The notes below the pieces were generated by a model, which saw only the letters and a program-made list of their open reading frames with translations, was not told the DNA's origin and made no database searches. This document shows positions 19,896-20,293 of a stretch of DNA of 31,688 nucleotides, piece after piece (within the stretch, counting starts at the first letter, position 1; each line of letters begins with the position of its first letter). Source of the stretch: a virus; the IMG/VR virus record IMGVR_UViG_3300029319_000278, positions 1 to 31,688 of that record; one strand, given 5' to 3'. The translations under genes were made by a program, and so were the position numbers.

Positions 19896-20203
19896 TAGTC
19901 TGCCCTCACTTCCATAAGCTCGCGGTGTTCTTTCTCGCAGATGGCTGCAACCTCTAAACGAATTGGAACACTAAACAACTTGTACCATTTGCCATTACCG
20001 CAAAATTCCTTGTGGTATTTCTTGGCGGCATTGATTGCAAAATAGGTCCATAGCTTGACAGCCTTTGCGGTGTCATAGTCACCCTTGTCGAAACGCTTTT
20101 GTAATAAAGCCTCTATGTGTTCGCGTTGCTGGCGGTATAGGTCGCCATCATTCAAAGCAAACAGGTATAGCTCTTGCGCGTCTATACTGAGTCCATTGTC
20201 CAT
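19895..20203 (-). CDS. Hypothetical helical protein behind the hammerhead ribozyme
   Basis: The 102-aa product from ATG 20203 is mostly helical: SIDAQELYLFALNDGDLYRQQREHIEALLQKRFDKGDYDTAKAVKLWTYFAINAAKKY, then GKWYKLFSVPIRLEVAAICEKEHRELM. The KRFDKGDYD...A...W pattern occurs in other small phage proteins of unknown role. AAAGGATCAAAG lies five bases before the ATG and fixes the start; the open frame to 20347 runs through the ribozyme. Its mRNA would start at 20261 after ribozyme cleavage, with a 5'-hydroxyl and a leader of 58 bases. Confidence 0.75.
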   Translation of the reverse strand: MDNGLSIDAQELYLFALNDGDLYRQQREHIEALLQKRFDKGDYDTAKAVKLWTYFAINAAKKYHKEFCGNGKWYKLFSVPIRLEVAAICEKEHRELMEVRAD

Positions 20204-20233: not shown

Positions 20234-20293
20234 GGCCTCATCAGTACCGACACAATCGGTAGACATAGCGCATTGCTGCGCCATGTTTCGGCC
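20234..20293 (-). ncRNA. Type II hammerhead ribozyme
   Basis: Read on the - strand 5' to 3': GGCC (20293-20290), GAAA (20289-20286), stem III CAUGGCGC (20285-20278) with loop AGCAAU and GCGCUAUG (20271-20264), U16.1 and C17 (20263, 20262), stem I UACCGA (20261-20256) with loop UUGUG and UCGGUA (20250-20245), CUGAUGA (20244-20238), GGCC (20237-20234). The core nucleotides CUGAUGA, GAAA and the GUC triplet are all present, with A15.1-U16.1, U1.1-A2.1 and G10.1-C11.1 closing pairs. Stem III has 9 pairs, stem I 6, stem II 4; stem II extends by an A-C mismatch and two A-U pairs to 20296 and 20231. Stem II is the open one, so this is type II. Cleavage is expected between 20262 and 20261. The first G belongs to the upstream gene's UAG stop. 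Confidence 0.93.

Follow-up and report, generated by a model that had tools for sequence, protein, structure and literature searches.

A complete type II hammerhead ribozyme was found on the minus strand (positions 20293–20234) of a 31,688-nucleotide stretch of viral DNA (IMG/VR record IMGVR_UViG_3300029319_000278, positions 1 to 31,688; hereafter the window). The hammerhead as such, and its intergenic place in a phage, are already known. What appears to be new is a conserved pairing between the catalytic strand of the ribozyme and a six-base tail directly 3′ of it. The explanation that we favour, with moderate confidence, is that of a cis-acting self-cleaving intercistronic RNA, the downstream product of which would refold into two 5′ hairpins, locking the cleavage and insulating the next gene. 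Evenly balanced in our estimate is the wider proposal of a widespread phage class of two-state hammerheads, in which the core strand would be reused, after or instead of cleavage, as a conserved 5′ hairpin, and each exchangeable gene would carry its own ribozyme insulator.

Anatomy of the hammerhead and its tail

In the direction of transcription, the element begins with the 5′ strand of stem II (GGCC, 20293–20290) and the core GAAA (20289–20286; G12, A13, A14 and A15.1), followed by the stem III hairpin (20286–20263), which consists of the A15.1–U16.1 pair and nine further base pairs, one of them G–U, with a GCAA loop. In the GUC triplet U16.1 is at 20263 and C17 at 20262, and cleavage is predicted between C17 (20262) and U1.1 (20261). 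The stem I hairpin (20261–20245; 6 bp, loop UUGUG), the core strand CUGAUGA (20244–20238; C3 to A9, with N7 being U20240) and the 3′ strand of stem II (GGCC, 20237–20234) complete the element. Every core element (CUGANGA, GAAA and NUH) is present in the type II order, with loops capping stems I and III and stem II left open. The tail CAUCAG (20233–20228) is complementary to the CUGAUG of the core strand (20244–20239), and the resulting alternative hairpin, CUGAUG-AGGCC-CAUCAG, which holds the 3′ strand of stem II in its loop, and the hammerhead fold are mutually exclusive. A first-pass annotation of this DNA had already described a complete type II hammerhead on this strand and named the same cut position, in agreement with the present reading. 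Its A15.1–U16.1 pair stands; its 8 bp for the remainder of stem III are to be corrected to 9 bp including the G–U pair, and its coordinates stopped short of the tail, located just outside.

A chance co-occurrence of these elements, judged very small at that time, is indeed improbable. A covariance model (R1) based on 15 relatives, from which the window was excluded, scored the element at 85 bits (E 4.1e-26) as its sole match within the window, and the minimum free energy of the element had a z-score of −3.8 against shuffled sequence. A structural descriptor gave no match in mononucleotide-shuffled sequence and 136 in 1.23 Mb of loci, of which only the shuffled zero is informative, since most of the loci had been chosen by a hammerhead pattern. 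With the Rfam type II model (RF02276) the element reached 25.6 bits (E 8.2e-5 over the whole record), short of the 37-bit gathering score, and it is classed here as a type II hammerhead variant and not as an RF02276 match. The covariance hit anticipated by the first-pass annotation was obtained, then, with the model built from relatives and not with that of Rfam, which has a 2-bp stem II and a different tail, whereas stem II of the window element has 4 bp. An Rfam search at the gathering score gave no match in the window or in 18 relatives, which indicates that the family model misses this class.

Covariation between N7 and the tail

In the alignment of 18 relatives, 100% of the hammerhead cells were paired and six pairs were altered on both sides, the three helices being preserved by compensatory changes. 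The tail base opposite N7 was A when N7 was U, and G when N7 was C; in one relative (L012) the CAUCAG is located eight bases farther along and was hence scored as a mismatch. Since N7 is the sole free position of the core, it is the only site at which such covariation could appear.

The association was then counted in a sample of at least 276 viral type II hammerheads, obtained from three pattern scans and from the loci already collected, nearly all of them selected for a GGCC stem II; the counts that follow are among the matches listed. Hammerheads with U7 were followed by AUCAG in 35 cases and by GUCAG in one, those with C7 by GUCAG in 60 and by AUCAG in none (Fisher p 2e-25, a statistic that ignores kinship), against one or two per class with shuffled tails. 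AUCAG tails amounted to 35/122 versus 1.7 expected, and a matching tail was found in none of the 27 hammerheads with A7 or G7. Altogether the tail was present in about a third of the sample. On a tree built without the N7 and tail columns, N7 changed at least 19 times, and the tail followed in nine of nine supported independent pairs (sign test p 0.004). Six of the 11 single departures from perfect tail pairing were G–U compatible, which, with these small numbers, favours RNA rather than DNA pairing. The spacing of the tail hairpin was variable in some hammerheads. Bacterial genomes contained 29 true cases, three of them with a tail and all three matching, too few to serve as an independent set. 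A pseudoknot between loop I and the tail (at least 4 bp) was rejected as a candidate: among members with the tail hairpin it occurred in 29%, against 31% in re-paired controls, not above background.

Phage type II hammerheads, together with a proposed splitting of operon transcripts, were published in 2011 by Perreault et al. (PMC3088659), who found that in bacteria type II equals types I and III in frequency and reported clustered hammerheads in prophages. The first-pass view of type II as the rarest topology is not supported by these data, and the context between phage genes, which it held to be little described, had been covered by the same report. The hammerheads of Perreault et al. share with the window element the topology, the complete catalytic core and the phage intergenic position; their class has loop I–tail pairing, whereas in the window class this pairing is not enriched and the partner of the tail is the core strand. 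A search of open-access papers brought up no conserved pairing between tail and catalytic strand, although the supplementary alignments of PMC3088659 may note one.

Placement between genes and exchange of neighbours

The terminase shares about 50% identity with the terminases of HTVC010P-group Pelagibacter phages and marks the window as a fragment of a marine phage of the HTVC010P kind. The upstream gene (20520–20293, minus strand) encodes 75 amino acids and ends with a TAG stop (20295–20293), the G of which doubles as a stem II base; the downstream gene (20203–19895, minus strand) encodes 102 amino acids from the ATG at 20203. Neither product belongs to a known family, and a family search left nearly all the neighbouring genes without one. 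Named phage records contained no related DNA and no relative of the downstream gene. The placement between two genes of the same strand, as first annotated, is exact, and the label of an early operon is plausible from gene order. Of 123 distinct viral type II hammerheads, 88 were located between two same-strand open reading frames at short distance, versus 7/123 when the opposite strand was read and 4.3% for randomly chosen places, in agreement with the published idea of transcript splitting (PMC3088659).

Relatives of the downstream gene were found in 18 viral contigs, and the same element is often their leader, a hammerhead being found at the equivalent place in L127, L128 and L121–L123. The stem III pattern of this subfamily matched in 17 contigs. 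Its 17 distinct members (window included) adjoin five downstream and at least eleven upstream gene families, and 15 of the 17 overlap a TAG stop. One upstream gene has three alternative downstream partners on the far side of the element, and the order in L409 is a homologue of the window's upstream gene, another gene, the hammerhead and a homologue of the window's downstream gene. From these partner combinations and the L409 order, the element mostly travels with the downstream gene and marks a gene-exchange junction.

Other leader RNAs were observed in related contigs. In L446:2430–2490 (a good match) and L449:2420–2490 (weak in stem I), type I-like hammerheads take the place of the type II ones that relatives carry ahead of this gene family; at this homologous spot, which belongs to another gene family than that of the window, the 3′ product likewise begins with a hairpin. 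A single contig (L503) carries four type I hammerheads, three or four of which are followed by a product hairpin GTGG-loop-CCAC with differing loops, and eleven type II hammerheads were found within 5 kb of a 67-kb phage contig (L002, record G009:2569–7558), about one per gene junction. In one family of 255-amino-acid proteins (L410–L459) some relatives have a hammerhead leader and others a promoter-like TTGACA leader. Where relatives have a hammerhead, the leaders at L124:4880–4990, L411:660–760, L412:2390–2490 and L418:2260–2360 contain a conserved two-hairpin RNA, GGCAGGG-loop-CCCTGCC followed by ACCCCTTGA-hairpin-TGAAGGGGT, with varying stems; no good Rfam match was obtained for it in these four leaders, and it is possibly another processing RNA. 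A repeated element just upstream of genes (L231:9888, L231:11008 and L119:9257) has an outer stem and an internal loop AATCCG/CCCGTGG around a GGCAGGG hairpin.

Proposed mechanism and alternative explanations

The sequences themselves show the anatomy, the conservation of pairing in both folds, the place between genes and the pattern of presence and absence; for the favoured explanation we infer the following activity, folding order and effects on stability and translation. The hammerhead would fold during transcription of the operon and cut at 20262/20261, with the 2′,3′-cyclic phosphate and 5′-OH ends expected of a hammerhead, leaving the upstream mRNA with the stem III hairpin as its end, just past the stop codon. 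In the downstream product the tail CAUCAG would capture the former catalytic strand CUGAUG; this would break stem II and the core, and should hinder re-ligation and keep the products apart. The downstream mRNA would start with two adjacent 5′ hairpins ahead of an open ribosome-binding site. The element itself is the leader module that goes with the downstream gene, placed where neighbours are swapped. Folding predictions for the 3′ product give both the stem I and the tail hairpin, with pair probabilities of at least 0.976, and leave the probable Shine–Dalgarno sequence (AAGGA, 20217–20213) unpaired.

A number of observations weigh against this explanation. Nearest-neighbour energies, which cover secondary structure only, gave two folds of similar energy for the uncut RNA of the element, the tail hairpin being favoured and the probability of stem II being 0.06; among 95 cases, the precursor was more stable in the alternative fold in 99%. 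With the alternative fold ahead before cleavage, the tail might just as well serve to turn cleavage off. The tail is absent from about two thirds of the hammerheads sampled. In type I hammerheads 5′ self-hairpins numbered 30 versus 14 expected when Watson–Crick pairs were counted, only about two-fold, and were near background when G–U was allowed. Many relatives are without the element: no hammerhead was found at the equivalent place in L124 and L125, and L120, with a downstream protein 94% identical, is without exactly a 70-bp stretch holding the element. A mutated core between conserved flanking genes, which the first-pass annotation would have held against the ribozyme, was not encountered, but in L120 the whole element is absent while both flanking genes are conserved, and on this sequence evidence the element is dispensable. 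In favour of the explanation, on the other side, the boundary between missing and present sequence takes in the tail, both in L120 and in L124 as compared with L127.

The precursor energies are also the argument for the main rival, an off-switch, which we regard as possible but not probable. The tail hairpin would form before cleavage and withdraw the catalytic strand, so that only some transcripts are cut, in a ratio that would depend on how fast the RNA is transcribed, on whether the upstream gene is being translated, on temperature or on some factor. However, the hammerhead is fully transcribed before the tail, the tail pairing starts precisely where stem I ends, as fits the 3′ product, and no ligand or factor is in sight. 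It is unlikely that the hammerhead acts as plain punctuation, as already proposed in PMC3088659, and that the tail pairing is without any separate function: the frequent absence of the tail would suit this reading, but the covariation of N7 and tail with independent switches argues against it.

We consider it rather more doubtful that CTGATG-AGGCC-CATCAG acts as an inverted repeat in the DNA, for protein binding or recombination, and overlaps the core by chance. A palindrome at the DNA level would covary too, and the element is located at gene-exchange junctions, but the departures from pairing are mostly G–U compatible (in small numbers), the motif is never found in A7 or G7 hammerheads among the matches listed, and the spacing is variable in some. 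Very improbable, finally, is a small mobile element in the form of a self-cleaving RNA copied between sites. Near-identical copies next to five downstream gene families and the clean 70-bp presence or absence would be in agreement with it; on the other side, each HTVC010P-like relative having a match has a single copy, the copies accompany the downstream gene and are accounted for by gene exchange, and gain is not distinguishable from loss, the CATA of both ends being found in ordinary leaders as well.

Cutting between genes has a counterpart in phage T7, in which RNase III cuts the polycistronic early mRNA between genes and leaves hairpin ends. The intergenic cuts and hairpin ends are alike in both cases, but the T7 processing needs a host enzyme, whereas the window RNA is predicted to cut itself. 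For the product proposed in the favoured explanation, the closest layout is that of RiboJ, a synthetic insulator composed of the sTRSV ribozyme and a 23-nt hairpin (PMC6206723). Its product has a hairpin at the 5′ end, and for the window element, too, the predicted folds place a 5′ hairpin immediately before a ribosome-binding site that is open. RiboJ is an engineered construct in which a hairpin was added separately to the ribozyme of a satellite RNA, whereas the window element would re-use its catalytic strand.

The role of prokaryotic hammerheads has been reviewed as an open question (PMC6155905). A conserved structure competing with the catalytic core offers a concrete handle on this role, and double changes, at N7 and in the tail, should make it possible to tell cleavage, locking and expression apart. 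If the favoured explanation is true, phages would have evolved a ribozyme insulator of the kind that engineers built later.
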